From positions 1-64,000 of the IMG/VR virus record IMGVR_UViG_3300048591_000302: DNA of 64,000 nucleotides; one strand, written 5' to 3'. Below are positions 1 to 26,640 of the stretch, one piece after another; positions within the stretch are counted from its first letter, which is position 1; every line of letters begins with the position of its first letter. Made by a program: the position numbers and the translations under genes. Origin of the DNA: a virus. A model generated the notes under the pieces. The model was not told where the DNA came from. It worked only from the letters and a program-made list of their open reading frames with translations, and did no database searches.

Positions 1-160
1 ACGCTCCACGCTCCACGCTCCACGCTCCACGCTCCACGCTCCACGCTCCACGCTCCACGCTCCACGCTCCACGCTCCACGCTCCACGCTCCACGCTCCAC
101 GCTCCACGCTCCATGCTCCACGCTCCACGCTCCACGCTCCACGCTCCACGCTCCACGCTC
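1..160. repeat. Heptamer tandem repeat (ACGCTCC)n
   Basis: About 22.9 head-to-tail copies of the 7-base unit ACGCTCC run from the first base of the window to position 160. Only one copy, at 113-119, differs (C to T at 114). The array may extend beyond the left edge. A 7-base unit shifts reading frame in each copy, and no start with a ribosome-binding site lies near, so it is not coding. It could be a genuine minisatellite or a contig-end artefact. Confidence 0.9.
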
Positions 161-11697: not shown

Positions 11698-11755
11698 ATA
11701 TCACCTTTGATTCTGATTTGGTAATCTGGCTTGTAGCCACACTACCTTGACTTCT

Positions 11756-11785
11756 GATTATGAGATTCGGCATAATCTGCGAATC
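11756..11785. promoter_or_regulatory. Composite 30-bp palindromic operator
   Basis: The site has the layout GATTA-N2-AGATTC-N4-TAATCT-N2-GAATC: four half-sites with the same spacings as the exact pair at 22551-22582 and 23109-23139. It lies 62 bases downstream of the leftward -10 box at 11847-11852. Confidence 0.6.
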
Positions 11786-11846
11786 TCTATTCCGCTTTGA
11801 ATAGCGGAACCAACAACCAACCAATAATGTAAAAGAACTATACCAT

Positions 11847-11874
11847 ATTATACCCTAAAAAGGGTAAAATACAA
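11847..11874 (-). promoter_or_regulatory. Leftward promoter with internal palindrome
   Basis: On the minus strand, TTGTAT (11874-11869), a 16-base spacer and TATAAT (11852-11847) match the promoter type at 220, 372 and 23043. The spacer carries the palindrome TACCCT-AAAA-AGGGTA, a possible repressor site. It lies between two composite operators in a 228-bp gap and would drive 11389-11697 and the genes beyond. Confidence 0.55.
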
Positions 11875-11923
11875 GCGGGAAACAAATTATTTTCGATTTA
11901 TTTTCAACCAGGGTTCAACCCCA

Positions 11924-11953
11924 GGTTATGAGATTATGGGCAATCTGATAATC
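11924..11953. promoter_or_regulatory. Composite 30-bp operator at a gene end
   Basis: The layout is GGTTA-N2-AGATTA-N4-CAATCT-N2-TAATC, one base changed in each of two half-sites relative to the exact operators. It overlaps the last codons of 11926-12366 and lies 50 bases upstream of the promoter at 11847-11874. Confidence 0.5.
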
Positions 11954-12366
11954 TGGTAAAATGTGTGGATTTCTTGATCTGCAAGCGTGGTTATGTAACC
12001 TCGCGAGTCGTAGATTTGCTCACCATCCCATGCTACTGCGTGACCGGGCATGAGCAATATGCCCATGCGCCCTTGTATATGCTCACGCAGACATAGATAA
12101 TATGAGATTGCATCATCATCACACGTACCCACGTGTATCACGCGCTCGAACGTGACACACGCATATCCGTGATCAAGCGCAGCGAGCGCAAGCTCGTTCG
12201 GGTGCATACCCTTGTAACACAATGGAGCTGAGCATCTTGGTCGAACGATCTTGTCACACGCATAGCGTGTGATTAACGAATCTGTCTCAGCATCCGATAG
12301 GTCAAGGCATGATGCAAGCGCGAGCGCGAGGCATGAACCTGGTCTTCTGCTTGTTATGAGTCTCAT
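11926..12366 (-). CDS. Papain/C39-like cysteine peptidase fold protein
   Basis: The 146-aa protein shows P-G-S-C12 followed by a helix, and near the C terminus M-P-G-H109-A-V-A-W with Asp120 in I-Y-D-S. This Cys-His-Asp order and spacing matches C39/papain-like peptidases and related phage proteins. No signal peptide is seen, so it would act in the cytoplasm. Target unknown; it could be a peptidase, deamidase or inactive relative. Its last codons overlap an operator. Confidence 0.55.
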   Translation of the reverse strand: MRLITSRRPGSCLALALASCLDLSDAETDSLITRYACDKIVRPRCSAPLCYKGMHPNELALAALDHGYACVTFERVIHVGTCDDDAISYYLCLREHIQGRMGILLMPGHAVAWDGEQIYDSRGYITTLADQEIHTFYQIIRLPIIS

Positions 12367-12689
12367 AGTGTTAGCAACAGGTATTTGTCGTAGTTTGGTT
12401 TCTGGAACAAGACCTTGTACTCATAGTCGTTCGCGGCAGTCATGATCCAAACACCAGACCCATTATCACAGAGTCTTGGGAAAGTCTGGAGCTGGGCTGC
12501 CGTGAACCGCGAGCCTTTCATATTGGGTAACTTGACCTCAATAAGTCGGATACCGTAAAGGCGATGCGTGGCAAACAAGTCTGGCATACCCTCCTGATAA
12601 GCATTGCCATGCAACACCTTTACGAACCAACCTCGTAAGGTTAGGAAATCCTTTATGTCTGTTTGGATTCGGGCTTCTCTACCTTGCAT
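12363..12689 (-). CDS. VRR-NUC domain nuclease
   Basis: A stand-alone nuclease of the VRR-NUC branch of PD-(D/E)XK enzymes, often coding for structure-specific DNA cleavage in replication or recombination. Seen: an N-terminal R-E-A-R-I-Q-T-D-I-K-D-F-L helix, M-P-D-L with the catalytic Asp, L-I-E-V-K as the ExK pair, and a F-T-A-A-Q-L helix. ATG 12689 follows AGAGGAA by 3-4 bases; a longer frame to 12746 overlaps the previous gene. It ends in a 4-base overlap with the next gene. Confidence 0.85.
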   Translation of the reverse strand: MQGREARIQTDIKDFLTLRGWFVKVLHGNAYQEGMPDLFATHRLYGIRLIEVKLPNMKGSRFTAAQLQTFPRLCDNGSGVWIMTAANDYEYKVLFQKPNYDKYLLLTL

Positions 12690-12916
12690 TGTTCCTCTTT
12701 CATCATTTGAATTGCGAACAACAGCATTTCGACGGCCTGCTTGCAATGGTGCATCTCATTAGGCGTGTCAATCAAGGCAAGCGCACACAAGCGTTTGGCT
12801 TGGTGCATGTAGAAAGCCTTGTTCTCGACGTCGAGCGAGATCTTGGTTACCAAATCTTTGAGATCCGGTTTGCACTCATGGAGCAGCGAACGTAATTGTT
12901 TGTCAGTCATTTTCAT
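12653..12916 (-). CDS. Hypothetical 87-aa helical protein
   Basis: Predominantly helical and charged, with a H-E-C and a H-H-C motif that might bind metal. GGAGG lies 9 bases before ATG 12916. It overlaps the Cys-rich protein upstream by 14 bases. No family recognised. Confidence 0.65.
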   Translation of the reverse strand: MKMTDKQLRSLLHECKPDLKDLVTKISLDVENKAFYMHQAKRLCALALIDTPNEMHHCKQAVEMLLFAIQMMKEEQCKVEKPESKQT

Positions 12917-13079
12917 CTAAGTCATCCTCCATATCAAACATGATTGTGTCATCGAAGTAACCCTTGCAAGCGAGATCCTGCTTGCAATTACCATCTTTGT
13001 CTACCAACACGTTCTTATTGACGTGCGCGATCATACAGCGACCCTTGTCATTACAGGACGAGCAACCGATTTCATTCAT
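12903..13079 (-). CDS. Cys-rich 58-aa protein
   Basis: A short gene starting at ATG 13079, which overlaps the stop of the upstream gene, with AGGAGG about 10 bases upstream. It has Cys at about residues 6, 9, 15, 32 and 38 (C-S-S-C near the start) and ends in a run of Asp/Glu. The pattern resembles the Cys-rich small proteins at 30950-31448, suggesting a metal-binding or disulfide family. Confidence 0.6.
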   Translation of the reverse strand: MNEIGCSSCNDKGRCMIAHVNKNVLVDKDGNCKQDLACKGYFDDTIMFDMEDDLDEND

Positions 13080-13431
13080 AGGGATACATCCTCCTCAGCA
13101 CTCCCGGACGTTGTGTCCATGCTTCGATAAGCGTGGACTTGTACTTCTTCAGCAGTTTCACTTCTTCGAGGTTCTTGATTGTGTCATCGAAATCCTTGTA
13201 CGTCTCGTACATATCCCACGTATCGGGCGTACGCAATCGATAGATTGACATGAACGGCTTGACTTGTTTCATCACGAAGGTGCCGAGCCAGATTTGCGCA
13301 TCTTTGATCTGGTCGTTGGTTGCACCCTGTCCTGGGTAGACAATGATGGAACCGAATCCGCATACGCGCATACATTCGTGCGCTTCCTTTATGAAGAACT
13401 CCTTGATGCCGTCAATCATTTCCTGTTTCAT
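13072..13431 (-). CDS. Hypothetical 119-aa protein
   Basis: A helical protein with a central S-I-I-V-Y-P-G-Q-G-A-T-N-D segment. ATG 13431 is preferred because it shortens the overlap with the upstream gene; ATG 13470 is possible. No family recognised. Confidence 0.6.
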   Translation of the reverse strand: MKQEMIDGIKEFFIKEAHECMRVCGFGSIIVYPGQGATNDQIKDAQIWLGTFVMKQVKPFMSIYRLRTPDTWDMYETYKDFDDTIKNLEEVKLLKKYKSTLIEAWTQRPGVLRRMYPYE

Positions 13432-13762
13432 TTTTCTCACGTCCTTTCTTACGGTTACGTATTTCTTCAATCAATCGGACCTTATTGTGTTGATAGTACT
13501 TGGGTATGCCCATGTTACGTGCAAGCCCATACAGGTCTTGCATTGTCATATCATAGTATGTTTCGTAGCGCAAGTACAACTCATCGATATACGATAGCAA
13601 CTTGTCATAGTTGCATATCCGGACGACCTTGGCAATGTACGCTAATTCATCCTCCTTTAGTTTGGAGATCAGCGTTTTCTCCAGATTACCTAATCTGTAT
13701 TCGATCTTCCGTGCCTCTGATGTTCGAGCTTTGGATAGGTCAACGACATCTTCCCATATCAT
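13412..13762 (-). CDS. Rho-N/SAP-like domain protein
   Basis: The 116-aa protein has a long helical first part. The C-terminal 45 residues read M-T-M-Q-D-L-Y-G-L-A-R-N-M-G-I and then K-V-R-L-I-E-E-I, the helix-extended-loop-helix pattern of Rho N-terminal or SAP-type nucleic-acid-binding domains. It overlaps the polymerase stop by 4 bases, so it is coupled to DNA polymerase and may bind DNA or RNA near it. Confidence 0.6.
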   Translation of the reverse strand: MIWEDVVDLSKARTSEARKIEYRLGNLEKTLISKLKEDELAYIAKVVRICNYDKLLSYIDELYLRYETYYDMTMQDLYGLARNMGIPKYYQHNKVRLIEEIRNRKKGREKNETGND

Positions 13763-16053
13763 TTTTCACCCCAGCTTGTCATATTGGTTTTCCATTCCAT
13801 ACCGATAAGTGGAACAATGGGTCTATAGGACTCGACCTTGAGGCGAACTGTCTCTGCTATCGCTGCTGATGCTGTGCGCTTATTGACACACATGATTTCG
13901 TCATGTATGTTCAGCGGAAGCGTAACAAATGGGTGCGCCCCTTGCGGTTGATGGTCCCATATTCCTCGTTGTACAGCTTTGGTAATCTGCGCTCCAGTAG
14001 ACTGGATACGGTGGTTACCTGCTGCTCTCATGTTAGATCCTTGAATCTGGAAAGCAGCACCATACAAAGCGGATTGCAATGCTCCGCAAGCTGTCTGCTC
14101 TCTATCAGAACGAACCACGGTCAACCGCAGTTTCTTCCACGGTTCAGGTGGCTTCTGTGCCATGTCAAATAGCGCACGGCAGATACGATTCTCAAGAGTG
14201 AAATACCTGCGGAACATGAGCATACTCGCTATGTAATCTGCCGGTTCATGCCACTCAACAGCTGTGCCTATGCCACCAGGCTGTTTCATGGAACAGAACA
14301 TATCGACCACATCACGACGTGCTTCACAGAACTCAGGATAATCTTCGAGAATACGCCTGTATGCTTCCTCAGCTACATCCTCAGGAAGACCCACTCTTGT
14401 AACGAGAGTATGAGTCTCACCGAAGTAACAGACAGCGAACACACCGTTCTTGCTTCTGCTGTACAAATCCTGTTTCGTACCTTTGGTTGCGCAAATCTCG
14501 TCATACGACAAGTGCGGGAAGAAGTACCTGCTTCCCCAGATCGAGTGAATCTTGAGACCAGAAGTAAGTTCTGCATGCATCTTACTATCATGGTATGCCG
14601 CATCCATCAAGCCAACTTCGAACGAATCGAAGTCACCGCCATCAAGCTGGTAACGCTTGTTGAAAGCGAGCTGGAAACACTCACGCACCTTGCGCTCACG
14701 ATTGATACCTTGTGGATTCAGTTCATCAGCACCTGACATGCGCGTACTCAGTGAGCCGATGACCTTGAATGATGCGTGAAATCTACCAGCCCGCAACAGT
14801 TTGTTGTACAGGTCGATTTCCTTCTCAGCACCACGGGCATCAATAATCTCTTGTGCCCGTAGGGCTGCGGGATGAGGCGAACTGTCATCGTTTGACCACG
14901 TTGCGACATGCTCAAGGAGCTTGCCGCGTGTGCTGTCAACGATAAGGGCTTCAGTTGGTTCCATCACGTCGTGCAAATATTTCAACGCTCTGCGTGGGTC
15001 AGTAGGTATGCGCCCTCTGGAGTCCACAGATTCTTTAATCAGAGCTTTGATCTTCGCCTTATTGATCGCGAAACCGTGCCACCGAACATTACCAACCATG
15101 CAAGCAAGTTCGCTGTCGTCATCAGACACAACAAGCTGTAAGTCCTCATTAGCTGTTCGCTTGAAGAAATTATACAACTCGCGGGTGTACACGATGTCAT
15201 CATGAGCATACTTGCGAGCTTGATCGTTGAACTCCCACATGCGCACATGATCTTCAACGTAGCGAGGCCAAGTTTGCTTCCAGTCATAATACACGTCTCC
15301 TGATGGGAGTTTGATTACTTTTGGTTTCACATACTTGCCTTCGATGGTTTTGTAACCTGCAAGTGCGAACGGGGCATAGCCCAATCCTCGCGGATGCGTG
15401 ACATCCAAGTTCTCGTACTTGATTTGCACATCCAGTCCGAGCGCATCAACGGCTAATGCTTTCAATGCACTTGAAGGCGCGAACTTCAAGATGACATCTT
15501 GGAACTTCAAATCCAATTTCCCATCTGCATCCTTACGGTCGCGAATGTGCCATTTCTTCTTTTCCTTGGACCGCTCGAAGTAGATGTCCTTAATCTCGAT
15601 ACGCTTGTTCAATTCTTCAGCGAGAAACTTCCCCAGCTCGACCGGAACCTTCTTGACGCGAATGGACTTGCGGTCCATCGTGCTTTGATATGGTCCCTTA
15701 CGAGCATGGAGCATCAGATCAACGATACCGCGAGGCTTGAGACACAAGGCATTGTTCCGTGCCTTAGGTTCAAGAAGTGCGATTTCGTTAATCATGCTGA
15801 TCGGTTTCTTGTCAAAGCCATAGGTTTCACCAGTAAGACGCAGAACATTATACAGCTTCGTCAAGTGAAACTGGTCAAATGCCCAGTTGAAACCGCACAA
15901 GTCATGCTTGAACAAATCTTCGATTAGTTCAAGAGTGACCTTGATGGGTTCAAGCCATGGGCTATATAGCGTTATCGGTCCATCATCTTCAGCGTACTGA
16001 ATGAGGACTATAATGCCATGTAAGCCACATGTTTCTGTGTCTACGAAATGCAT
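13759..16053 (-). CDS. Family A DNA polymerase with 3'-5' exonuclease
   Basis: The phage replicative polymerase. The N-terminal proofreading domain has F-V-D-T-E-T (Exo I, residues 3-8), G-F-N-W-A-F-D (Exo II) and a Y-A-H-D-D segment (Exo III). Polymerase motifs follow: A as D-F-D-S-F-E near residue 472, B as R-S-K-N-G-V-F-A-V-C-Y-F-G near 533, and C as I-H-D-E near 717. At about 764 aa it is typical of phage PolA-type enzymes. ATG 16053 is chosen; TTG 16062 sits too close to GAGGT but cannot be excluded. The Rho-N-like gene is coupled downstream. Confidence 0.95.
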   Translation of the reverse strand: MHFVDTETCGLHGIIVLIQYAEDDGPITLYSPWLEPIKVTLELIEDLFKHDLCGFNWAFDQFHLTKLYNVLRLTGETYGFDKKPISMINEIALLEPKARNNALCLKPRGIVDLMLHARKGPYQSTMDRKSIRVKKVPVELGKFLAEELNKRIEIKDIYFERSKEKKKWHIRDRKDADGKLDLKFQDVILKFAPSSALKALAVDALGLDVQIKYENLDVTHPRGLGYAPFALAGYKTIEGKYVKPKVIKLPSGDVYYDWKQTWPRYVEDHVRMWEFNDQARKYAHDDIVYTRELYNFFKRTANEDLQLVVSDDDSELACMVGNVRWHGFAINKAKIKALIKESVDSRGRIPTDPRRALKYLHDVMEPTEALIVDSTRGKLLEHVATWSNDDSSPHPAALRAQEIIDARGAEKEIDLYNKLLRAGRFHASFKVIGSLSTRMSGADELNPQGINRERKVRECFQLAFNKRYQLDGGDFDSFEVGLMDAAYHDSKMHAELTSGLKIHSIWGSRYFFPHLSYDEICATKGTKQDLYSRSKNGVFAVCYFGETHTLVTRVGLPEDVAEEAYRRILEDYPEFCEARRDVVDMFCSMKQPGGIGTAVEWHEPADYIASMLMFRRYFTLENRICRALFDMAQKPPEPWKKLRLTVVRSDREQTACGALQSALYGAAFQIQGSNMRAAGNHRIQSTGAQITKAVQRGIWDHQPQGAHPFVTLPLNIHDEIMCVNKRTASAAIAETVRLKVESYRPIVPLIGMEWKTNMTSWGEK

Positions 16054-16247
16054 AGGTAACAAATGACCTCACGTCTGTTGTTAGCAAGCTTGCAATCGAA
16101 CTTGATTCCGTTGATCTCGAATTGCGGGGAAATGCTTTTGAGTTTCACTGGTGACTGCATAACGAACACGCGGAGACCACTGGAAACAACTTTGAACGGT
16201 CTGTCAATTCCAGGCATCTTGAGCGTGTTCCCTGGTTTCATAATCAT
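16041..16247 (-). CDS. Hypothetical 68-aa protein
   Basis: A basic beta-rich protein (F-K-V-V-S-S-G-L-R-V-F-V-M) beginning at ATG 16247 with GGAGA 7 bases upstream. It is coupled to the gene before (ATGA) and overlaps the polymerase start. Small barrel-like; no family recognised. Confidence 0.65.
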   Translation of the reverse strand: MIMKPGNTLKMPGIDRPFKVVSSGLRVFVMQSPVKLKSISPQFEINGIKFDCKLANNRREVICYLCIS

Positions 16248-16540
16248 GACTGCTTCTCCATCGATTTGGCTTTGTGCATTTTGATGAACTCGCCCACAAG
16301 GAAGCGGTCCACCTTACGACATCTGATTCCGAGATTGCGCTCGATGAATCGTACGGATTCGAGCTGCCCGGCTGTCGGGGCAAACTTCTCCACGATCAAT
16401 TGAGCGTCATCATTGCTCAGCTGTATGTCAGCTGATTGACCAACCTCTTTGATTGTGTCAATCAGCTTAGCCAAGTGTCCGTCTGTGTCCAGACAAACAC
16501 GGGCAGCGATCCTGAAGATCACCATCTTCCCGTTAATCAT
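16244..16540 (-). CDS. Hypothetical 98-aa protein
   Basis: ATG 16540 overlaps the end of the upstream gene and follows GGAGA by about 7 bases; the longer frame to 16603 is unlikely. Mixed alpha/beta with a V-I-F-R-I-A-A-R-V start and a helical C-terminal part (R-F-I-E-R-N-L). No family recognised. Confidence 0.65.
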   Translation of the reverse strand: MINGKMVIFRIAARVCLDTDGHLAKLIDTIKEVGQSADIQLSNDDAQLIVEKFAPTAGQLESVRFIERNLGIRCRKVDRFLVGEFIKMHKAKSMEKQS

Positions 16541-16859
16541 CCAGATTCTCCATGCTTGTAAGAACAGGTATTTTGAGAACGACTGACGCCACATAGATTT
16601 CAACGCTGACGCCCGTACTGTGCGAAGATTGTGGCATCACAAACATATGAGTGAAACCACCATTCAATAATACTGTCAAATGACGACACATGCACTCAGA
16701 CCATGGCTTGTCCGGGTCCATCTCCGACTGGATCGGATTGTAGACGTTGCCATAGACTGATAGCTTACGCTCATACGATCTGAAATCTTCCTTGATGTCC
16801 TCAAGCTTCATACCGGCGTTGAGCCTGTTAGATATTGAGCCTGCCAAGTAGATTTTCAT
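16533..16859 (-). CDS. DUF4406 / nucleoside deoxyribosyltransferase-like protein
   Basis: The 108-aa protein begins with K-I-Y-L-A-G-S-I-S, has V-Y-N-P near residue 40 and a conserved S-x-G-V-S-V-E-I-Y-V-A helix near residue 85. This order fits small Rossmann-like proteins related to nucleoside 2-deoxyribosyltransferases (DUF4406), which exchange or cleave bases of deoxynucleosides. ATG 16859 follows GGAG by 8 bases. Enzymatic activity is inferred only from family likeness. Confidence 0.7.
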   Translation of the reverse strand: MKIYLAGSISNRLNAGMKLEDIKEDFRSYERKLSVYGNVYNPIQSEMDPDKPWSECMCRHLTVLLNGGFTHMFVMPQSSHSTGVSVEIYVASVVLKIPVLTSMENLDD

Positions 16860-17038
16860 TCGCAATGCTCCACGCGGGCTGTGATGTTGGACATCTGACC
16901 GACATTCAGATCGAGGAAATCCACGATCTTCATCTTTTCCAAAACGGCATTCTCGTGAACAACCGGATCGAAGCCACGCTCGTCATATGCCCGTTCGTCG
17001 ATTTCGTAATCAGCTGAGAACACAATTCTTAGTTTCAT
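16856..17038 (-). CDS. Hypothetical 60-aa protein
   Basis: An acidic protein starting with a beta strand (L-R-I-V-F-S-A) and a helical middle. Overlaps the next gene by 4 bases. The ribosome-binding site is weak. No family recognised. Confidence 0.6.
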   Translation of the reverse strand: MKLRIVFSADYEIDERAYDERGFDPVVHENAVLEKMKIVDFLDLNVGQMSNITARVEHCE

Positions 17039-17260
17039 TCAAACCCAACTTTCATGATAGATTTTATTACCAACAATTCTTGTTGTGGATTTAGGAAACC
17101 ACCTGCAAGCAATTTCACCCCCTACATGGTACATAAGATGGTATGCAAGTTCAGTTTCCCCGAGCTTCATCGCTAAGACGTATTTGATGGTACAAGTTCG
17201 AGGTCTTGTGTCTAAATCCTCGGCATCGTCATATATATCATAGTCATCCGCGTAACCCAT
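17039..17260 (-). CDS. Hypothetical 73-aa protein
   Basis: Acidic N terminus (many Asp and Tyr) then a T-I-K-Y-V-L-A-M strand and helical segments. GAGGTGA lies 3-4 bases before ATG. Adjacent to the next gene with no gap. No family recognised. Confidence 0.65.
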   Translation of the reverse strand: MGYADDYDIYDDAEDLDTRPRTCTIKYVLAMKLGETELAYHLMYHVGGEIACRWFPKSTTRIVGNKIYHESWV

Positions 17261-17263
17261 AAA

Positions 17264-17674
17264 TCACCTCAGATCATAATGCTGGGTTTCGAAATCCAGA
17301 GCAGTATCCAGGATATATTGTTGTGTATTCTTGGGCTGTATCTTATCTTTCGGTATCAACCCGAAGCGATCATTGATTTGCATAATCCGCCGTGTATAGA
17401 ACTTCCAAGCGTTGAACCGCTTAGTTGGCGAAGCATTCGGGTTAAGAAGAACCTTCCTATATCGTTGCCACTCAAGAAACACAGCGTGTTCATACGGAGT
17501 AAGTCGACCAGTATCGCGCTTCTGTTGAAGACGATACTGGTCGGTCACCCACTTCTGATACTGCTCGTTCCAGGGCATTCTCTGATTATAGAATCCCTGG
17601 ACCGATGCCTCTCCTGCGTTAGCCGCAGATAGGAGAGTCCAAATTAGGACCAGTATACAGTTTATTTTGTACAT
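17264..17674 (-). CDS. Secreted or periplasmic 136-aa protein
   Basis: The first 21 residues form a typical signal peptide: a Lys, a hydrophobic core (I-L-V-L-I-W-T-L-L) and S-A-A-N-A as a cleavage site. The mature part is basic, rich in Gln, Tyr and Arg, and helical. No lipobox Cys follows. ATG 17674 is used rather than GTG 17677. It overlaps the 3' end of the ParB-like gene by 56 bases. It may act at the host envelope, e.g. superinfection exclusion; this is inference. Confidence 0.6.
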   Translation of the reverse strand: MYKINCILVLIWTLLSAANAGEASVQGFYNQRMPWNEQYQKWVTDQYRLQQKRDTGRLTPYEHAVFLEWQRYRKVLLNPNASPTKRFNAWKFYTRRIMQINDRFGLIPKDKIQPKNTQQYILDTALDFETQHYDLR

Positions 17675-18464
17675 CACACACCGTTTTGATGTCTTGGATC
17701 ATGTCTCGGTCAGTAATGCCACCAGAGCACCAGGCGGCAACGCGAGTATGAATGCCGTAACCGATGTTAGCGGCAAGCAATTCGACGAGCTTGTCAACTT
17801 CACCGCGACAACGAACACGACGAGCGTTGGAGTTCGCAGATGTCCGAGTGACAACCTTGGAACGAACGCTCCCGTCAGCATTGTTCTCGTGATGGATCTT
17901 GAGGCGCTTCGCCAGATCGTACATCTTGTCCTTGTCGTCACGGAGAGAGTACAAATCACGAACCGAAGCCTGCGAAAGAATGTTCTTGGCTGCCAGTTCC
18001 TGAATGTCAACGGGAAGCTTCAGCAAGAGCCAGCGGCATTGAACCCAACCACGAGATTTGCCGATCCGATCGGCAACTTCGTATTCGTTCAGACCGGCAG
18101 CAAGCAACGCCTCGATGCCTTTGGCTTCTTGGTAGAGCGACAGGGCACGACGCTTCAGGTTCTCGGACAGGTTCATGACGCGGGCTTGCGTTTCGTCGAT
18201 GTCAGTCCGAATGATGCACGGGATGGTCTTCTTGCCAAGCAATTCGTGCGCTTTGTACCGGCAGTTACCGGCAACGACACGATACTTGTAGAACTTCCCA
18301 TCGCTTGCCAGTCTCTCAAACGGCTGAATCATGATTGGCTGCATCAGACCATTGGCTTCGATGTCCTCAGCCAATTCCTGTACCTCCGACGGGTTGATGA
18401 CGCCACGACAGTTGAAGGTCGGGTCCGAAATCATTTCTTCGAGTGCGATCAGCTTGACTTCCAT
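17619..18464 (-). CDS. ParB-like protein with helix-turn-helix (second of three)
   Basis: The closest of the three to canonical ParB. It has an N-terminal Q-P-I-M-I-Q-P segment, Y-R-V-V-A-G-N-C-R near residue 68 (ParB box II-like), M-N-L-S-E-N-L-K-R near 118 (the E-N-L-x-R stretch) and a helix-turn-helix E-Y-E-V-A-D-R-I-G-K-S-R-G-W-V near 145. The C-terminal third is divergent with several Cys. In phages such proteins bind DNA for partition or transcription control; no ParA is nearby. The gene directly follows the SNF2-type helicase with a 1-base overlap. Confidence 0.85.
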   Translation of the reverse strand: MEVKLIALEEMISDPTFNCRGVINPSEVQELAEDIEANGLMQPIMIQPFERLASDGKFYKYRVVAGNCRYKAHELLGKKTIPCIIRTDIDETQARVMNLSENLKRRALSLYQEAKGIEALLAAGLNEYEVADRIGKSRGWVQCRWLLLKLPVDIQELAAKNILSQASVRDLYSLRDDKDKMYDLAKRLKIHHENNADGSVRSKVVTRTSANSNARRVRCRGEVDKLVELLAANIGYGIHTRVAAWCSGGITDRDMIQDIKTVCDVQNKLYTGPNLDSPICG

Positions 18465-20338
18465 TAGAATACCCTCCTAAGTTCGTTTGTTGTTATTGTC
18501 TGCAAGTCACGTTTCTTCTTCAAGTTCTGTAAGATTAACTCATCTGTAGGCAGATGAATGATATCGATGATCGTAGCACCTGCGTTGGTATCCATCCCTA
18601 ATCTGTGGATACGGTCCTCAGATTGCATACGACTCTCGGCGTTGTAATCATTGCTGTAATAGACGATGGCAGGTGACGCTGTAAGCGTAAGTCCCATACC
18701 GCCGGCACCCGGTTGAGCAACGAATGCAATCAATGGATAATCGTCGAAGTTCTCTTGGAACGCTCGTAACACTTCGGTATTATCCTTGATGCCCATTGTG
18801 TTGATCCAGCCTCGACCATCAACCTGTATGACATTCCATCCTGCTTTCTTGGCAATGTCCGTACAGATATCAACCGAGCCTTGATAGCCTCCGTAGATTA
18901 CGAGCCTTCCAATTTCGGAGTACTCGTCGAGCAGGTCTTGCAAGACTGCCATCTTCGGAGATTTCACAACCTGTGACTGACGTTCGACGATTGGGGCTTT
19001 GCCCTCACCCTTACAATGAGGACACACGATTGTCACCATTTCATAGGTCACCTCCTGCATTTCACCACTGATTGTAACATCTATACCGTCGTTGCTCGTT
19101 GAAGCAATAGCTTCAGTGATCTTGCCAACGCCATCACAGACTTCGCAACGACCCATTCTGTCAGTCACCACTTCGATGTACTGGAACCCGTCACTCAGCT
19201 CACGAAGTAGATTGAGCGCAGTAATTGCTCTTGGTGCTTTCGCGGCAATCGTAGTCATTGCCCGGCGTGTTGCTGAATCGATATCACACTTGATAAGCCG
19301 ATAGATCTTGTCTGGCAGATTCAGCAAATCTTTCTTGAGCTGAATGATGGCAATGCCCTTCATACGTTCGCCGAGAACCTTGACTTCGTTCTTGGCTTCG
19401 TTGAATGAGTGATACGTTATGGAGCCGATCACATGATTCGCATGATCTTTGGTCATCCCGCAGGTACGGCACAAGCCTTCCTTGTCATACCACGTCACCA
19501 ACTTGGGGAACGTATTACCCGCGAGACCTTCTTGTTTCACGATCAAACCAAGACGGTCGCGGAATTTGTGAATGTTGCCCTCAACGAGAAAGCCTGGACA
19601 ACACACTTCAACTTGCCAATACCAGTCTGTTGGGTTTCTTGGAGCGGGTGTACCTGACATCAAGATTACGAAACCGTCGTTGTTGCGCAAGTTCCGAATT
19701 GTTGAAGCGAGTTTCATAGCCGACTTGGAACGTTGTGCATTCGGATTCTTCAATCTCGATGATTCGTCGAAGACGACTCCATCGTATTGGTCACCAATGC
19801 ACTTCTCGAACATGTTGTAAGACATGAACGTCGGCATGATCTCGGCTTTCCATTTCTGGAACTCAAGCTTGTTGGCATACAACACGCTTTTGGGAGCTAC
19901 CCATAGCCAGTTACGTAATCCTTGCTTGGCTGCCCACTCCATGGTTTCGATAGCCATGAGTGTTTTGCCAAGGCCCATCTCTGAGCCAAGAATGCACTGG
20001 CGGCGCGTGATAAGATGCCTGATTCCGTCGATCTGATAGGGTCTGAGAGAGCGTTTGCTCTCGTATTCGAGAAGAGGTTTGTCATATCGCTCGTAAGGAT
20101 TCAATCCTTCGAGAAACATGAGCTGGAAGATGTTTCGCTCTGTTGCCTTGATTGACCAATCTTTGGTTGGATTCACTTCGTCGAAGCCGTGATACTTGGC
20201 TCCGTCAAAGGTCTTGATTCGGTCAATCAAAGTCTTATTGTAACCGCTTTGGATGCGGATACGATCCTTATCCCAGATCAGTTTGACAGGGACTTTGCGC
20301 CTGTCAACGATGAAGAATGTTTGTTCAATGTTTGACAT
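18464..20338 (-). CDS. SNF2-family DNA helicase/translocase with zinc-finger insert
   Basis: A 624-aa superfamily 2 ATPase. Walker A is G-S-E-M-G-L-G-K-T (118-126), Walker B is V-F-D-E-S-S (189-194), then S-G-T-P-A-P-R-N-P (motif III), and near the C terminus Q-S-E-D-R-I-H-R-L-G (motif VI). Between the two RecA lobes, around residues 415-470, it carries C-E-V-C-D-G-V-G and C-P-H-C-K-G-E-G, a DnaJ-type C-x2-C-x-G-x-G zinc module, plus an earlier C-R-T-C. It probably moves along duplex DNA or remodels forks and protein-DNA complexes. Between the ParB-like gene and a hypothetical. Confidence 0.88.
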   Translation of the reverse strand: MSNIEQTFFIVDRRKVPVKLIWDKDRIRIQSGYNKTLIDRIKTFDGAKYHGFDEVNPTKDWSIKATERNIFQLMFLEGLNPYERYDKPLLEYESKRSLRPYQIDGIRHLITRRQCILGSEMGLGKTLMAIETMEWAAKQGLRNWLWVAPKSVLYANKLEFQKWKAEIMPTFMSYNMFEKCIGDQYDGVVFDESSRLKNPNAQRSKSAMKLASTIRNLRNNDGFVILMSGTPAPRNPTDWYWQVEVCCPGFLVEGNIHKFRDRLGLIVKQEGLAGNTFPKLVTWYDKEGLCRTCGMTKDHANHVIGSITYHSFNEAKNEVKVLGERMKGIAIIQLKKDLLNLPDKIYRLIKCDIDSATRRAMTTIAAKAPRAITALNLLRELSDGFQYIEVVTDRMGRCEVCDGVGKITEAIASTSNDGIDVTISGEMQEVTYEMVTIVCPHCKGEGKAPIVERQSQVVKSPKMAVLQDLLDEYSEIGRLVIYGGYQGSVDICTDIAKKAGWNVIQVDGRGWINTMGIKDNTEVLRAFQENFDDYPLIAFVAQPGAGGMGLTLTASPAIVYYSNDYNAESRMQSEDRIHRLGMDTNAGATIIDIIHLPTDELILQNLKKKRDLQTITTNELRRVF

Positions 20339-20639
20339 TTTTACCTATCCTCTTGAAGAGTTCAGCATCTATTTTATACAACTCGTCGAACACTTTACCA
20401 AGACCGTCTATGTTGGTCACATACTCATACTTGTGCAAGTTTGAGTAGATATTGTACCAATCTAATAGTGTCCCGGTACAGATGTAAGCATCTGTGTTCG
20501 TGAGTTCATCGACTAACAAATACTTGTTGAATAGGAACATCAAATTACAATTGAGCTTCAGAACATAGCTGACGTAACAGTGAGATCGCATAATCTCGAT
20601 CGGTAAAGTCTGCTTTGGTACTGATCGTATGATTTGCAT
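20325..20639 (-). CDS. Hypothetical 104-aa protein
   Basis: A helical, Tyr- and Leu-rich protein just downstream of a terminator hairpin, without a clear ribosome-binding site at ATG 20639; an internal ATG at 20591 is an alternative. It overlaps the helicase start by 14 bases. No family recognised. Confidence 0.5.
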   Translation of the reverse strand: MQIIRSVPKQTLPIEIMRSHCYVSYVLKLNCNLMFLFNKYLLVDELTNTDAYICTGTLLDWYNIYSNLHKYEYVTNIDGLGKVFDELYKIDAELFKRIGKNVKH

Positions 20640-20643
20640 GGTG

Positions 20644-20674
20644 AAGAAAAGGCGGGTGTATTGCTACACCCGCC
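20644..20674 (-). terminator. Rho-independent terminator inside the leftward block
   Basis: GGCGGGTGTA (20651-20660) pairs perfectly with 20665-20674 around a 4-base loop. On the minus strand the stem is followed by TTTTCTT. It lies between the 220-aa gene and the rest of the leftward block, so it may make the first two genes more abundant than those downstream. Confidence 0.85.
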
Positions 20675-20689
20675 ACCCTTTCCCCCGCT

Positions 20690-21352
20690 CTACACAGTCC
20701 TGTCGGAAACAGGTTCTGCTTCAGGTGCTTGCTCGGCAGTCTGAATCTTCGGATTGTTGAAATCCTGGATTGCAGCAGCGATTGCCTCGTCGTCCGGCAA
20801 CGGATTGATCACGTTTTTACAGTCGATACACTTGGGAGCGTGCCAACTGTAGCCGTTTGCTTCGACGAGAACGCTTTTCACCGTGGCAGATCGCCCAATC
20901 CGCGATACGAAGGCACGGGTCTCGTAGCGTGACGACTTGTTTCCGAGCAGGTACGGGACGAAGGTTTCCTTCGACGGGAACCAGAGCAGGAACTCAGGAC
21001 CGGCCATATTGCCCATCCGGACTTCCTGAACCTTGCTGTCCGAGTCTTGCATGATCTGCTTGAAGAGTTCGCTCTCCGGCTCATGCGAGACAACGACTTT
21101 CTCATCGCTGAACTTGATGGCTTTGGGACGCCAAGCCAAGATGATGCAATCGAACTCCTTGCCAACGTCGCAGATTTCTTTGCCTTCGACGTAGCCGAAG
21201 TGACCCATCCCGATTGCACCGGTCTTGACTTCGCGACTCGACGAGCCGTAAAGTTGCATCCGATTGAAGCCGCCTTTGGACATGTTCTCGATGAACGACT
21301 CATCCCACTGGGTAGGAACGGACGGAACGGAAACGATCATTTCATTACTCAT
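20690..21352 (-). CDS. Abundant-type hypothetical protein, 220 aa, acidic tail
   Basis: A globular protein of mixed alpha/beta composition with one C-x2-C pair (C-I-D-C near residue 180) and an acidic, proline-containing C-terminal tail, as often seen in single-strand DNA-binding proteins. I cannot identify an OB-fold signature. ATG 21352 follows AAGGA by 8 bases. A terminator right after it and the ParB-like gene before it suggest strong independent expression. SSB-like function is only a guess. Confidence 0.65.
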   Translation of the reverse strand: MSNEMIVSVPSVPTQWDESFIENMSKGGFNRMQLYGSSSREVKTGAIGMGHFGYVEGKEICDVGKEFDCIILAWRPKAIKFSDEKVVVSHEPESELFKQIMQDSDSKVQEVRMGNMAGPEFLLWFPSKETFVPYLLGNKSSRYETRAFVSRIGRSATVKSVLVEANGYSWHAPKCIDCKNVINPLPDDEAIAAAIQDFNNPKIQTAEQAPEAEPVSDRTV

Positions 21353-21399
21353 GGTCTTAATCCTTAGTGATTAATGATTAACGATTAGTGATTAACGAA

Positions 21400-22440
21400 T
21401 CAGACTTCGACGACCTTCGCCGTGTCAGCGGTGACAGCGACGTTACCATTCAACTCGCTCTTCATCTGTTCGAGCTTGGCAACTTCGCGTTCGAGCTTCT
21501 TGCGCTTGCGTTCTTCGTCACGCTTGGACGCCGCTTCTTCGAGCGACATCTTGCGCTCGTCGAATTTCCGCTTGGCTTCGCCGATGCTCTCCGGATCGAG
21601 ACGCATACACCACGTCAGGGCGAAGAGGAAGGCTCCGGAGGGATCGGTGATACTGTTCCGGCTCAGCAGATCGGCAACATCTGCGGTGTTGTTGCGCATG
21701 GATTCAATTTCACCCTTGTTGCGCCACGTTGCCACGGTCGGAGGAACGAACTCTTCCGTTGCGCCACGACCTTCACGCTTCGCCTTGTTCAGCTCGGCGA
21801 GACGGCTTTTGATGTTGCCAGCGAACTCGCGGGACGAATCATTGATCGCCGCTTCCTTGTAGTTCAGCTGTTCTTCCGGCGGCAGATTGGCGAGAGCGAA
21901 CGCATTGGAGAGCTTGATGACGCCTTCGTCGACCAGGGTCGCGATATCTTCGTGGAGCTTGATGAGCTTCATCCGTTCCTTCACGAACGCCTCGGAGACG
22001 GCGAGCATTTTCGCCATTTCTTTGGTGGTCATGAGCGGATCGGCTGCCATGATTCGCACCATCTGCTGCGTGAATTGCGCCGGAAGGGTGTCGATGCGGT
22101 GATGGTTCGCCATGAACTGGTCAACGAGTGCTTCGTTGTCGCTGATGTTACGAATCAGCGCCGGGACTTCGGACAGACCAGCCATCTTGCTTGCCGTGAA
22201 ACGTTGCAGACCGTCACAGAGGATGTACTTGCCTTCGATTGCGTCAATCTCGATTTCCTGGCTTTCCTTGAGCTGAACCGCGTCGTCCTGCGTCATCGGA
22301 CGAACCGAGAGCGCATTGATCAGACCACGGGCAGCAATGGAATCGACGAGTTCTTGGAACTTTTCGGTTTCCTTGTTGACCGGTCTGAGAGCGACTGGAG
22401 ATTCGTAAATCTCCCCGAGTTTGAGCATTTTCTGCTCCAT
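21400..22440 (-). CDS. ParB-like protein with C-terminal coiled coil (third of three)
   Basis: The 346-aa protein has an N-terminal ParB-like domain: S-I-A-A-R-G-L-I-N-A-L-S-V-R near residue 40, then Y-I-L-C-D-G-L-Q-R-F-T-A near 75 and a G-L-S-E-V-P-A-L segment. A helical region with a possible helix-turn-helix (T-K-E-M-A-K-M-L-A-V-S near 140) follows, and residues about 280-325 are a charged coiled coil. It is the first gene of the leftward block, led by GGAGGCACGAA directly before ATG and preceded by a dense set of palindromes. It may repress or organise the control region next to it; inference. Confidence 0.8.
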   Translation of the reverse strand: MEQKMLKLGEIYESPVALRPVNKETEKFQELVDSIAARGLINALSVRPMTQDDAVQLKESQEIEIDAIEGKYILCDGLQRFTASKMAGLSEVPALIRNISDNEALVDQFMANHHRIDTLPAQFTQQMVRIMAADPLMTTKEMAKMLAVSEAFVKERMKLIKLHEDIATLVDEGVIKLSNAFALANLPPEEQLNYKEAAINDSSREFAGNIKSRLAELNKAKREGRGATEEFVPPTVATWRNKGEIESMRNNTADVADLLSRNSITDPSGAFLFALTWCMRLDPESIGEAKRKFDERKMSLEEAASKRDEERKRKKLEREVAKLEQMKSELNGNVAVTADTAKVVEV

Positions 22441-22550
22441 TTCGTGCCTCCGTATTTTGGAGTTTGGTTATGTAATCTGGGCGTTTTACCCAGATATCCG
22501 GTAGGTTATGTAATCTCGCAGATTACGCAAATCTCAGTATCAGTATTCCC

Positions 22551-22582
22551 AGATTACGAGATTATGCGTAATCTCATAATCT
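22551..22582. promoter_or_regulatory. Composite palindromic operator, left copy
   Basis: Layout GATTA-N2-AGATTA-N4-TAATCT-N2-TAATC, symmetrical about the centre with four half-sites. 31 consecutive bases (22552-22582) are identical to 23109-23139. It is 112 bases upstream of the ParB-like start at 22440. The size suits binding by two dimers. Confidence 0.75.
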
Positions 22583-22865
22583 ACAGTTTGTTCCGCGACA
22601 TAAGGCAGTAAATAGCGGTTTGCGTCAATTCCTATCGGTCTAACTTGAACGGTATGGCGTTTACTGCCTTTATCCATATTCATATATAGGTCGGCTTTCA
22701 AGTTGAAATTTGACGGCTAAAAACAAAAGACAAGAAAAATTTTCGACTCTATCATACAATACCACAATTCGGACTAAAAAACAAACGTGAAACTAAAAAA
22801 GGTGAAAAAAAGTCGGTAAAATGAGTAGAATTTACAAAGCATTCAACCTATAGCGTTTTACAGAT

Positions 22866-23011
22866 ACTTATTTATCCTTATTTATCTACATTATCCCCTT
22901 CAGGGTTCCTTTCAGGTTCTCTTTGATATAGAGAGGACTTCTTTTTTGAGTGTCGGTTTGTAAGTTGTTCATAGTCAAACTTATCAACCTACTTATTTAT
23001 TGCGTTTTCGG
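22866..23011. repeat. 146-bp duplicated control element, copy 2
   Basis: Ungapped match to 2637-2782, same strand, about 90 percent identical by eye. The tandem CTTATTTAT repeats and the CCCCTTCAGGG core are kept; most differences lie in the last third. It ends 32 bases before the -35 box of the rightward promoter. Confidence 0.7.
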
Positions 23012-23042
23012 ACATTCCATTTATTTCAATATACCGTTTGTT

Positions 23043-23070
23043 TTGTAAAGGGTTTAGCGTATTGTATAGT
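23043..23070 (+). promoter_or_regulatory. Rightward promoter for the primase-helicase block
   Basis: TTGTAA (23043-23048), 16 bases, TATAGT (23065-23070): both hexamers identical to P1 at 220-247. A composite operator begins 38 bases downstream of the -10 box, well placed to block early transcription. The first gene starts at 23174. Confidence 0.65.
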
Positions 23071-23108
23071 AATGCGGTTTCGTTTTACGCGCATGAAACG
23101 CCGTTTGT

Positions 23109-23139
23109 GATTACGAGATTATGCGTAATCTCATAATCT
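23109..23139. promoter_or_regulatory. Composite palindromic operator, right copy
   Basis: 31 bases identical to 22552-22582 with the layout GATTA-N2-AGATTA-N4-TAATCT-N2-TAATC. It lies in the leader of the primase-helicase gene, between promoter and start codon. Confidence 0.75.
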
Positions 23140-23173
23140 GGATTACATAACCACAAAAATAAGGTACAAAAGC

Positions 23174-25768
23174 ATGGTCACAAGAGGGCAGATTATCAAA
23201 GATTTCCTTGAAAATACGCCAGATTATGATAATCTCGCTGATTTGTATGCACTTTACCGCGATGAAATGCAATGTCATGTAGTGGTTGCAGCAGATAACG
23301 GTAAGCGTGACGGATTAGGTTGGACGGACGGCGTTTCATCTTGGTATCCTTTCGTGATTTCAGACCAAGATTCACTAATCAAACATGTCGGTTTTGATTT
23401 GCGCAGTCATGTTGAAGGTATTGGACTCACTGGCTGGAACTGGAAAGAGAAATGCAGCATGTGGGTCGCCTTTGACTTCGACTCGCTTGTCAATCATAAA
23501 CAGGGATTGACGGAATCTGAACTCAAAGACATCGCGAATGCAGTAAGTAACATCGAATGGGTAACTATTCGGCACTCAACGAGCGGGAAAGGTTATCACA
23601 TCTATGTTAGATTAGATCCTGCAATCCCCACGGATAACCGTGCTGAACACTCAGCACTTGCGAGAGCGGTATTGCACAGGATGACAGCGTTGACCGGCTA
23701 TAACTTCAAGGACAAGATTGACGTCTGTGGCGGTAACATGTGGGTTTGGCACCGCAAGATGCGTGGTACGAATGGTCTTGAACTGATTAAAAGTGGTATT
23801 CCACTCAATAACCTTCCGAATTGGAAGGAACATATTGATGTGATTACCCAATCTCAGCGCAAACCTCGTGATTATGACACCTTGGTTTCAGCCAGAACCA
23901 ATATCAAGCTTGATGCGTCACATCTGAAGTTGTTGAATTGGCTTCAAGATAACGGTTGTACATGGTGGTGGGATAATGATAGGCATTTGCTTGTCACACA
24001 TTCGATTGATCTCAAGCAAGCACACGAATCACTCGAACTAAAGGGGTTGTTTGAGACAAACAGTAGCCGGACTACAACACACAACGTGTTTTGTTTTCCA
24101 TTGCGTTGTGGTGCGTGGGTCGTTCGTCGCTTCGGTAAGGGATGTACCGAGCATGAATCGTGGGAAGTAGACGCAAATGGATGGACAAGATGCTACTTCA
24201 ACACAGATTTGGACATCAATACGGCTTCGCGTACGTTTGGTGGCACTGAACATCCAAATGGTGGCTTCATTTTTGGCGAAACAGAGAGTGCTGTCAAAGC
24301 TGCGCTCTCCTTAGGTGTGCATTTAGACTTGCCACCTAAGGCAAACCTGTGTACGTGTCGCATGAAAGAACATAGAGATGGTCGTCTGATTGTCGAAATC
24401 TTTGATAAGGAGAACCATTTAGCTGGGACAATGGACGGTTGGATTCGCGATGGTCATTTCTGGAAGAAACTGTACAACAAGAACAGGCAGAATAAGACAA
24501 CAGAAGAGCTTGAGAACTTCGATGACTTGATTCGGCATCTGATTTCACCATCTGGAGAGGATCAGGGCTGGGCGATCTATGTCAACGGAGAGTGGACCTT
24601 TGAAATCCTAACGCATATCAAGCTGGCTCTGGCAAGTCTTGGCTATAAACAGAAGGAGATTAACGAAATCTTGGGTTCCTCGGTGCTGAAAGGATGGAAA
24701 CTTGTCAATGTTCCCTTCGCAACCGAATATCCCGGCGACAGATCGTGGAATCTCAATGGTGCTCAGTTGGTGTATCAGCCAACTATCACGTCAATTGATT
24801 CACTACAAGTGAGTTGCCCGCACTGGTGGTCAATTATTGAGCATATTGGTCAGTCTTTGGATGAAGCAGTATCAACCAATGATTGGGCACTCAGTAACCG
24901 TATCTATACTGGTGCTGATTACATAACCTGTTGGATTTCCTCACTCTTTCAAGAGTCAACGCAACCGTTACCTTACTTGTTTCTCTATGGGAAACAGAAC
25001 ACTGGGAAATCCATACTGCATGAAGCTCTTTCGTTGCTTATGACTAAGGGCTATGTCAGAGCAGACAATGCTCTTACAAGTCAAGGCGGCTTCAATGCCG
25101 AGTTGGAGTCAGCGGTTTTGTGCGTTGTTGAAGAAACGAATCTCAAAACTGCTAAGGAAGCATCAAACAGAATCAAAGATTGGGTAACCGCACGTGAGCT
25201 GTCTATTCATCATAAGGGTAAAACACCCTACATGATTAAGAACGTGACACACTGGATGCAATTCAGTAACGAGTATGATGCTTGTCCAGTGTTTCCCGGT
25301 GACACGCGAATCGTTGTTATTCATGTGAATGAGCTTAAGAGTATTGTTCCCAAGAAGAGGCTTATCGAACATTTGAAAGAGGAAGCCTCAGCTTTCATGA
25401 ACTATATTCTTAACTTCCAGATTCCGGAATCACCTGATCGCTTGAACGTTCCAGTACTTCAAACAACAGACAAATTCAATATTGCAGAAAGTAACAAAAG
25501 CTTAGTCGAGGTGTTTATCGAAGAAAAGTGTCACTCTGTGCCTGGTCATCTGATCAAATTCAGCGACATGTATCAGGAGTTCATCAATTGGCTTGGACCA
25601 ACAACAGATTATTGGGGAAAGAAACGCTTCTCTAAGGAGCTTCCTCCCCATATTCTTCGGGGTCGTAGTCCACAAAACAATCAACTTTATGTGGCAAACC
25701 TGACCATGTACGCTGAAGCAGAGCCAGGTATGCCCTATAGGGTAATAGACGGAAAGGTTACTCAATGA
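23174..25768 (+). CDS. Primase-polymerase/SF3 helicase replication protein
   Basis: An 864-aa fusion that likely primes and unwinds DNA at the phage origin. The N-terminal archaeo-eukaryotic primase-like domain shows W-V-A-F-D-F-D (metal-binding DxD, near residue 100) and S-T-S-G-K-G-Y-H-I-Y-V (S-x-G-x-G-x-H type motif, near 140). The C-terminal helicase is superfamily 3/D5-like: F-L-Y-G-K-Q-N-T-G-K-S (Walker A near 605), V-L-C-V-V-E-E-T (Walker B-type acidic pair) and F-S-N-E-Y (sensor 1/motif C). It is the first gene rightward of the control region, which is what is expected of an initiator. Overlaps the methylase start by 4 bases. Confidence 0.88.
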   Translation: MVTRGQIIKDFLENTPDYDNLADLYALYRDEMQCHVVVAADNGKRDGLGWTDGVSSWYPFVISDQDSLIKHVGFDLRSHVEGIGLTGWNWKEKCSMWVAFDFDSLVNHKQGLTESELKDIANAVSNIEWVTIRHSTSGKGYHIYVRLDPAIPTDNRAEHSALARAVLHRMTALTGYNFKDKIDVCGGNMWVWHRKMRGTNGLELIKSGIPLNNLPNWKEHIDVITQSQRKPRDYDTLVSARTNIKLDASHLKLLNWLQDNGCTWWWDNDRHLLVTHSIDLKQAHESLELKGLFETNSSRTTTHNVFCFPLRCGAWVVRRFGKGCTEHESWEVDANGWTRCYFNTDLDINTASRTFGGTEHPNGGFIFGETESAVKAALSLGVHLDLPPKANLCTCRMKEHRDGRLIVEIFDKENHLAGTMDGWIRDGHFWKKLYNKNRQNKTTEELENFDDLIRHLISPSGEDQGWAIYVNGEWTFEILTHIKLALASLGYKQKEINEILGSSVLKGWKLVNVPFATEYPGDRSWNLNGAQLVYQPTITSIDSLQVSCPHWWSIIEHIGQSLDEAVSTNDWALSNRIYTGADYITCWISSLFQESTQPLPYLFLYGKQNTGKSILHEALSLLMTKGYVRADNALTSQGGFNAELESAVLCVVEETNLKTAKEASNRIKDWVTARELSIHHKGKTPYMIKNVTHWMQFSNEYDACPVFPGDTRIVVIHVNELKSIVPKKRLIEHLKEEASAFMNYILNFQIPESPDRLNVPVLQTTDKFNIAESNKSLVEVFIEEKCHSVPGHLIKFSDMYQEFINWLGPTTDYWGKKRFSKELPPHILRGRSPQNNQLYVANLTMYAEAEPGMPYRVIDGKVTQ

Positions 25769-26640
25769 GTTATTTGGACGACTTGCTTTCGTTTGTTGAA
25801 ACAGATGTTGCAACCACCAGAGAGAAGGTGAGTAAGGGTGCTTTCCCGTACCCTGGTGGCAAGTCACGTTCGCTAGGCAATCTGTTGCCTCTGCTCCCTT
25901 ACCGGAACAAGTACATCGAATTGTTCGGTGGTAGTGGTGTCGTGTTCATGAATCGGAAGAGGTCCAAGTGTGAGGTCTTCAACGACAAACACGCTGGCTT
26001 AGTTGACTTCTTCAAATCGTGTCGTGAGAAACCAGATGATGTAATCGAGTATTTGAAGCAGTTTCCATTCTCTCGCGAGGATTTCATTGACTGTCGAGAT
26101 ACTTGGGTTACGACAACCGATCCGTTGGAGCGTGGTTGCAAATGGTTCTATTCCATTATCAACAGTTTCACGTCCCAAGGTCGTAATTTCGGACGCAGTT
26201 TGCAGGATAGCTCTGCTAAGCATTTGCGCAGAGAACCTATCATCAAAGAAATCGCAGCTCGGTTCAAAGATGTTCTAATCGAGAACCAGGATTTCATGCA
26301 ACTGCTCAAGGATTATGATTCAAGTGATTCAGTTTTCTATCTGGACCCACCGTATATCGGTGACTTGTGTTCAACTATGAGCGGATTCTATAAGCATATG
26401 ATGACACGTGAAGAGCATTTAGCTCTGATCGAACAAGTGTTCAAGATGAAAGGGTTCGTTGCTGTAAGCAGTTACAAGAATCCGCTCTACGAGCCATACC
26501 CTTGGACTCGCGTTGAATGTTGGGAGATTATGCTCAGCATGAAAGGCTGTGCTTTCACTGAATCGAACAAATTGTTGGAGCTACGGGATCGTAGCGAAAG
26601 TCGTCCGATGCGTTACGAATATCTATATATCAAGGAGTAA
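25765..26640 (+). CDS. Dam-type DNA adenine-N6 methyltransferase (D12 class)
   Basis: A 291-aa enzyme that transfers a methyl group from S-adenosylmethionine to adenine in DNA. Motifs: F-P-Y-P-G-G-K-S (near residue 27), Y-I-E-L-F-G-G-S-G-V-V-F (SAM-binding motif I, near 51) and F-Y-L-D-P-P-Y-I-G (catalytic D-P-P-Y near 194). This order is that of the alpha-class Dam/M.DpnII type, many of which recognise GATC. No restriction endonuclease is adjacent, so it is an orphan that could protect phage DNA or mark replicated DNA. Target sequence not provable from here. Confidence 0.9.
   Translation: MSYLDDLLSFVETDVATTREKVSKGAFPYPGGKSRSLGNLLPLLPYRNKYIELFGGSGVVFMNRKRSKCEVFNDKHAGLVDFFKSCREKPDDVIEYLKQFPFSREDFIDCRDTWVTTTDPLERGCKWFYSIINSFTSQGRNFGRSLQDSSAKHLRREPIIKEIAARFKDVLIENQDFMQLLKDYDSSDSVFYLDPPYIGDLCSTMSGFYKHMMTREEHLALIEQVFKMKGFVAVSSYKNPLYEPYPWTRVECWEIMLSMKGCAFTESNKLLELRDRSESRPMRYEYLYIKE

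Follow-up and report, generated by a model that had tools for sequence, protein, structure and literature searches.

What protein reads a 30-base element of four half-sites that recurs in the control regions of an uncultured phage, and what does that protein control? The element lies in IMG/VR virus record IMGVR_UViG_3300048591_000302, which is 70,748 bases long; positions 1–64,000 are the window analysed here and the remaining 6.7 kb were read as a separate piece, L001, with genes taken from a list based on open reading frames (ORFs) and not from a curated annotation. Two identical copies form the two ends of a gap (22441–23173) between the divergent genes of a ParB-like protein, which we call ParB1, and a primase-like protein. 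We show that this repeated element is genuine, an operator at the divergent replication promoter that dozens of uncultured phages have in common, and that its half-site is scattered about once per kilobase over the genome of each phage, spelt differently from one to the next. ParB1 is most likely the protein that reads these sites.

A composite operator at both ends of a divergent gap

The layout GATTA-N2-AGATTA-N4-TAATCT-N2-TAATC matches exactly at 22552–22581 and 23109–23138 and with two mismatches at 11756–11785 and 11924–11953; none is expected by chance, and 100 dinucleotide-preserving shuffles contained no match. The exact copies share 31 identical bases (22552–22582 and 23109–23139), and the right half of the pattern, TAATCT-N2-TAATC (TAATCTGCTAATC), is found at 463–475, upstream of ORF 556–1578. 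These observations bear out a first-pass annotation made from the sequence alone, except that it had allowed one or two changes in the copies at 11756 and 11924, each of which has two. The same annotation had called the element perfectly symmetrical; the half-sites are, but the element is best read as four abutting octamers (AGATTAYG AGATTAYG CRTAATCT CRTAATCT) whose Y and R bases are not.

On the left, the composite operator at 22551–22582 (AGATTACGAGATTATGCGTAATCTCATAATCT) faces the minus-strand gene of ParB1 (21400–22440), a ParB/Noc/KorB-like protein of 346 amino acids, which is followed leftward by gene 20690–21352, an SNF2-type helicase and a second ParB-like protein of 281 amino acids (ParB2, 17619–18464, minus strand). 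On the right, the copy at 23109–23139 precedes the plus-strand gene of a DUF5906/phage primase-like protein (23174–25768), the first of a rightward operon whose second gene encodes a D12 adenine methyltransferase (25765–26640). The gap also holds GGTTATGTAATC at 22466 and 22504, GATTACGCAAATC at 22521 and GATTACATAACC at 23141. The two imperfect copies (11756–11786 and 11924–11954) lie inside and at the edge of another gap, 11698–11925, the second overlapping the 3′ end of the minus-strand ORF 11926–12366. Apart from this overlap, the sites stand upstream of start codons, in keeping with their earlier description as lying in control gaps beside promoters; the promoters themselves found no such backing, as a sigma-70 consensus scan of 22.4–23.25 kb gave promoter-like sites no more often than shuffles did (3 versus 3.0). 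An Rfam search returned nothing, a similarity search of the gap DNA against cultured phages gave no match and neither did the 30-mer consensus against the viral collection.

The divergent gap shares a further repeat with another gap, near 2.7 kb: 154 bases at 22858–23011 are 89% identical to 2629–2782. The two gaps may thus have a promoter, a terminator or part of an origin in common; within the copy at 22858–23011, positions 22914–22940 form a terminator-like stem.

The operator architecture is kept in relatives

A single-sequence search of viral contigs with ParB1 found no relatives; alignment of the primase succeeded instead, yielding 236 viral relatives. The analysis used the 80 best of them, several of their loci being near-duplicates, and a search of genome contigs added four distant loci only. 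ParB1 is divergent to the primase gene in 68 loci and in all 30 with full flanks. Exact composites, in the form core-n-core followed by inverted core-n-inverted core, occur in 46 of 82 gaps against 0.6 in shuffles; all those found in the relatives start no more than about 560 bases upstream of the primase gene. They are oriented core-first at the primase end (32 of 35) and inverse-first at the ParB end (21 of 24). That the architecture recurs in many relatives, at either end of this one divergent gap, strongly supports the view that the element is an operator for a sequence-specific DNA-binding protein.

GATT is the usual core, with its copies one base apart (two in L004 and L020, four in the phage studied here), and the same architecture is built from other cores in some relatives, with GGTC at both ends in L039 and GATG in L052–L054 and L059. 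Composite copies within one gap switch core together, which points to a single trans-acting reader. Four half-sites at fixed spacings had earlier suggested binding by a pair of dimers. The spacings are indeed fixed within this phage, but across the family the core-to-core step is 5, 6 or 8 and the arms are separated by 0–24 bases, which gives no support to a rigid pair of dimers. The linker base between cores is complementary across the arms in 30 of 40 cases, no more than the 27 expected for independent arms, indicating that sequence is kept and not a hairpin. Doublets number 129 inside the gaps and 36 outside, where 80 would be expected. Unlike the simple palindrome, which is spread over the genome, the doublet operator is therefore restricted to the control gap.

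Two local variants accompany this picture. In L064, four simple GATT-N4-AATC palindromes upstream of ParB1 replace the doublet composite, an arrangement hinting that the two forms may be interchangeable. On the primase side of the GATG-class gaps (L052–L054 and L059), TTGTGGATAACTT occurs several times as a second motif unrelated to the core.

A dispersed palindrome with lineage-specific spelling

Beyond the operators, the 70.7-kb record contains GATT-N4-AATC 58 times and GATT-N5-AATC 26 times (84 in total, about 1.2 per kb), compared with 0–4 each for control spacings of 2, 3, 6, 7 and 8 and 2–7 for the reversed AATC-Nn-GATT. In a scan of all 256 four-base cores at gaps of 0–12, GATT-N4 ranked first in this phage (58 versus 2.8), and in many relatives the dominant palindrome shares the core of that phage's own operator. 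Coding sequence holds 72 of the 84 sites, in all three frames and with differing encoded peptides; synonymous-codon shuffling reduced the 45 N4 and 20 N5 sites counted there to 3.8 and 2.7. An artefact of composition or codon usage was rejected on these far lower shuffle counts and on the lack of enrichment at neighbouring spacings, and we conclude that the sites are under selection at the DNA level. Single-base variants (GATC, GATG, GGTT and GCTT half-sites) are also enriched at N4 and N5, so that weaker sites are still more numerous.

The window accounts for 66 of these palindromes, between 533 and 63922. Those with N4 start at 6064, 7196, 7934, 8281, 8402, 8731, 9984, 11715, 12271, 13684, 15029, 17000, 17584, 19744, 20150, 21390, 22400, 23369, 23842, 25420, 29103, 29871, 30171, 30867, 31720, 33123, 33400, 33840, 35748, 36601, 37227, 40069, 40870, 45688, 50980, 53014, 55130, 55330, 57989, 58781, 60422, 61037 and 63911, and those with N5 at 533, 2134, 4671, 11113, 15781, 16451, 17375, 19318, 20216, 20752, 22237, 22521, 23222, 23505, 24388, 24658, 27194, 28167, 36714, 42963, 49437, 51262 and 55354. 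Another 18 lie beyond the window, at 64279–70623 of the record. Density is higher at about 20–25 kb and 65–70 kb, and elsewhere the spacing is random-like (coefficient of variation 0.92). A non-coding tandem array of CAGATTGAGAAATCTGAAAC units, each with one GATT-N4-AATC, occupies positions 5640–5780 of L001 (69640–69780 of the record) and is a candidate origin, pac or partition-like site.

The spelling of the sites follows the lineage. GATG-N4-CATC occurs 61 times in 37.8 kb of L052 and 79 times in 48 kb of L059, where GATT-N4-AATC is found 0 and 1 times; the latter reaches 64 (L076), 58 (this phage) and 52 (L018) per record, and reversed control patterns give 0–6. Grouped by class, own-core sites per 10 kb amount to 8.5 for GATT, 23.0 for GATG, 9.9 for GATA, 3.5 for GAGT and 12.4 for GTTT, with non-own cores near background. 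The GATG, GAGT and GGTC classes were named from their operators before genome counts were made; the GATA and GTTT labels were fixed after the genome-wide scan, and for these two the agreement between operator and genome is therefore not independent. Pairwise alignment of relatives shows 94 of 163 sites to be conserved, against 21 expected for same-shaped words.

ParB1 as the likeliest reader

Five proteins are universal in the 30 loci with full flanks, namely ParB1, ParB2, the helicase, the 20690-type protein and an exonuclease-like protein, and among them only ParB1 and ParB2 carry a recognized sequence-specific DNA-binding domain. ParB1 has the domain order of its family, a ParB N-terminal (CTPase-fold) domain followed by a ParB-type helix-turn-helix (HTH), with Pfam matches above cut-off to PF02195 (ParB_N) and PF17762 (HTH_ParB) and profile matches to Spo0J, Noc, ParB and KorB down to 1.6e-27. 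A Foldseek search with its structural model likewise retrieved ParB, Noc and KorB folds. All 52 orthologues examined keep G77, R80 and N112, candidates for the G..R and N residues of the nucleotide-binding motif, but the canonical motif is incomplete. In every locus with full flanks ParB1 adjoins the operators. Two other products of the region were set aside as binders: the protein of 20690–21352, whose model is mainly beta without an HTH and whose weak fold matches (none below E 0.001) include single-stranded DNA-binding proteins, and the D12 methyltransferase, an unlikely reader as it is missing from seven motif-bearing phages with full flanks.

We consider it somewhat probable that ParB1 binds both the dispersed palindromes and the doublet operators, controlling its own and the primase operons and coating or organizing the phage DNA. 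The GATT half-site would be the recognition unit of this phage-encoded protein and would be read by ParB1 dimers; a pair of inverted half-sites with a gap of 4 or 5 bases would make a simple palindrome that serves as a loading site along the genome, and in the gap between the two replication operons half-sites set as facing doublets would form a specialized operator. Its own gene starting at one operator, ParB1 would act on both operons at the composites near their starts and, by repression or activation, set the amounts of both itself and the primase. Loading at the dispersed palindromes may serve to coat or organize the phage DNA, as Noc does on a chromosome and KorB on a plasmid. Such a coat might compact, silence or protect the DNA.

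Several observations weigh against this proposal. The composites do not use the N4/N5 spacing, so that one protein must read two arrangements; about 36 of the 82 gaps are without an exact composite, some because of a short contig or a more degenerate core; and L039 and L051, with GGTC and GAAG operators respectively, show no genome-wide N4/N5 enrichment of their core. Differences at contact positions did not track differences in core in a partial Mantel test (ParB1, r 0.05, p 0.28; ParB2 also not significant), and covariation thus did not separate ParB1 from ParB2.

In a more ambitious version, which we regard as possible but doubtful, a widespread lineage of uncultured phages would handle its genome as a miniature chromosome. 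A ParB-type clamp would load at about one palindrome per kilobase, perhaps using CTP or sliding, and coat the viral DNA so as to compact it, shield it or allow self-recognition, and it would sense its own level through the doublet operators; as each sub-lineage has its own site dialect, the code would mark self DNA.

Alternative readers and functions

The strongest alternative, to which we give a minor though appreciable chance, accepts the sites as real and makes ParB1 a mere neighbour, the binder being ParB2, an unrecognized phage regulator or a host nucleoid protein. ParB2 is as conserved as ParB1, the two occurring together in all 30 loci with full flanks, covariation favours neither, and many small phage genes lack a family match and could encode such a regulator. 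DNA-contact residues of Caulobacter ParB (PMC7383237), mapped by hand onto ParB1 through a Noc alignment, nevertheless fall at several positions that vary in ParB1, with GATG phages sharing a Gly at the N178 equivalent, whereas the ParB2 recognition helix (S-R-G-W-V-Q-V-R) is nearly constant and the same in GATG and GATT phages, which is hard to square with a change of target and favours ParB1. ParB1 is also the protein that adjoins the operators everywhere, and a host protein would need to vary between hosts in step with the phage dialect.

Less likely still, the dispersed sites could be transcription-blocking operators of an immunity repressor, resembling in function the stoperators that halt elongation in lysogens, and not a structural coat. 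In cluster A mycobacteriophages stoperators are read by an immunity repressor of the HTH type, and their genome-wide scatter, lineage-specific consensus and presence at the regulator's own promoter (PMC6550527) are all traits found here too. Stoperators are, however, asymmetric and mostly oriented with transcription (PMC6550527), whereas the sites here are palindromic, lie mostly within coding sequence and have a ParB-like candidate reader. No integrase or lysogeny repressor was seen among the proteins scanned, an incomplete set.

A role for the palindromes as targets or marks of the D12 methyltransferase, or of a restriction-like system, seems highly improbable. The methyltransferase gene stands second in the primase operon, but no orthologue was found in the motif-bearing full-flank phages L008, L046, L058, L063, L064, L075 and L076, and D12 targets do not resemble palindromes whose halves are separated by 4 or 5 free bases. 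Weakest of all, and largely refuted, is the view of the composites as leader RNA hairpins and of the dispersed palindromes as codon or peptide usage bias: in most gaps the composites, being inverted repeats, do lie no more than about 120 bases from start codons, but the linkers gave no sign of pairing by compensatory change, the cores hold their identity and recur as direct repeats, and synonymous shuffles yield about one-tenth of the sites.

Comparison with known systems and cultured phages

The closest parallels to ParB1 and its putative sites are Noc with its Noc-binding sites (NBS) and chromosomal ParB/parS, which share the ParB_N and HTH_ParB domains, the fold and palindromes of 14–16 bp, Noc also having many dispersed sites. 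A change of target by few residues is documented for ParB/Noc (PMC7383237). The phage sites differ from parS and NBS in core and spacing, are far denser and lie in a viral genome, and they are accompanied by a doublet operator in the gap of their predicted regulator. KorB of plasmid RK2, a ParB-family regulator of replication genes that acts at operators near and far from promoters and forms a CTP-dependent clamp (PMC11790492), resembles ParB1 as a candidate regulator at replication genes; KorB uses one 16-bp site (O_B) and a partner, KorA, whereas the phage has repeated-core composites and far more sites, and no KorA-like partner was identified in it. Pseudomonas aeruginosa ParB, bound at hundreds of single-arm half-parS motifs genome-wide (PMC10419367), is likewise a ParB-family protein with many sites spread over one genome; those are half-sites on a bacterial chromosome, whereas the phage has selected palindromes with a gap of 4–5 bases. 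A survey of the ParB-CTPase fold describes phage ParB-like proteins as common and diverse, and the passages of it consulted make no mention of such dispersed sites (PMC12704722). Our searches of open-licence papers turned up no palindromic code of about one site per kilobase in coding sequence that comes in dialects and is accompanied by paired doublet operators between ParB and primase genes. No ParA ATPase, as would be linked in a ParABS partition system, was seen among about 30 proteins scanned, a set short of a genome-wide ParA search.

Ten cultured phages were given the same core scan as the relatives. Eight of them, three with an annotated ParB-like gene, had much weaker best-core scores (ln P about −6 to −28). 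In the 50 kb of Burkholderia phage BcepNazgul (L087, NC_005091.2), GAAGTWACTTC recurs 15 times (for example at 15167, 16479, 31422 and 48762), against 0.16 expected for its five-base core. Most copies fall within genes, and two closely flank the ParB-like gene (15308–16474, product gp29). BcepNazgul thus resembles the phage studied here in combining a ParB-like gene with dispersed palindromes mainly in genes, and differs in that its site is a contiguous 11-mer about four times less dense. It is the only such cultured case found, the three other ParB-bearing phages being without the pattern. Vibrio phage PS14A.1 (L089, MW824431.1) has about 34 copies of TTGGTCT-N-AGACCAA between 1461 and 48265, all intergenic among those checked. 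This is a different phenomenon, probably a hairpin that recurs behind most genes and is either terminator-like or linked to promoters.

Other repeats in the genome

Inverted 24-base repeats (96% identical) at 511–534 and 1598–1621 flank the weakly ParB-like ORF 556–1578 in the manner of a mobile or cassette-like unit, and a palindrome cluster with repeated GTGTGACANNNTGTCACAC and GGTGCAACAAAAGTTGCACC lies in the non-coding stretch 2254–2459. Arrays of the heptamer ACGCTCC at both contig ends (window 1–160 and L001 6635–6748) suggest a circular genome. Other heptamer arrays are formed by TCCCTTG at 6059–6118 of L001 and by the similar TCTCTTG at 50–95 of the relative L002.

Implications for phage biology

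If the proposed role of ParB1 is correct, the coding sequence of a large phage lineage is interspersed with a protein-binding code specific to each sub-lineage, constraining synonymous positions about once per kilobase, and the phage genome would be coated or organized by a ParB-like protein. The dialects GATT, GATG, GATA, GAGT and GTTT would then provide a natural specificity series for studying target switching in ParB-type proteins, and BcepNazgul, though a single case, is cultivable. The same finding would make concrete the role of many ‘ParB-like’ proteins encoded by phages without a partition system.

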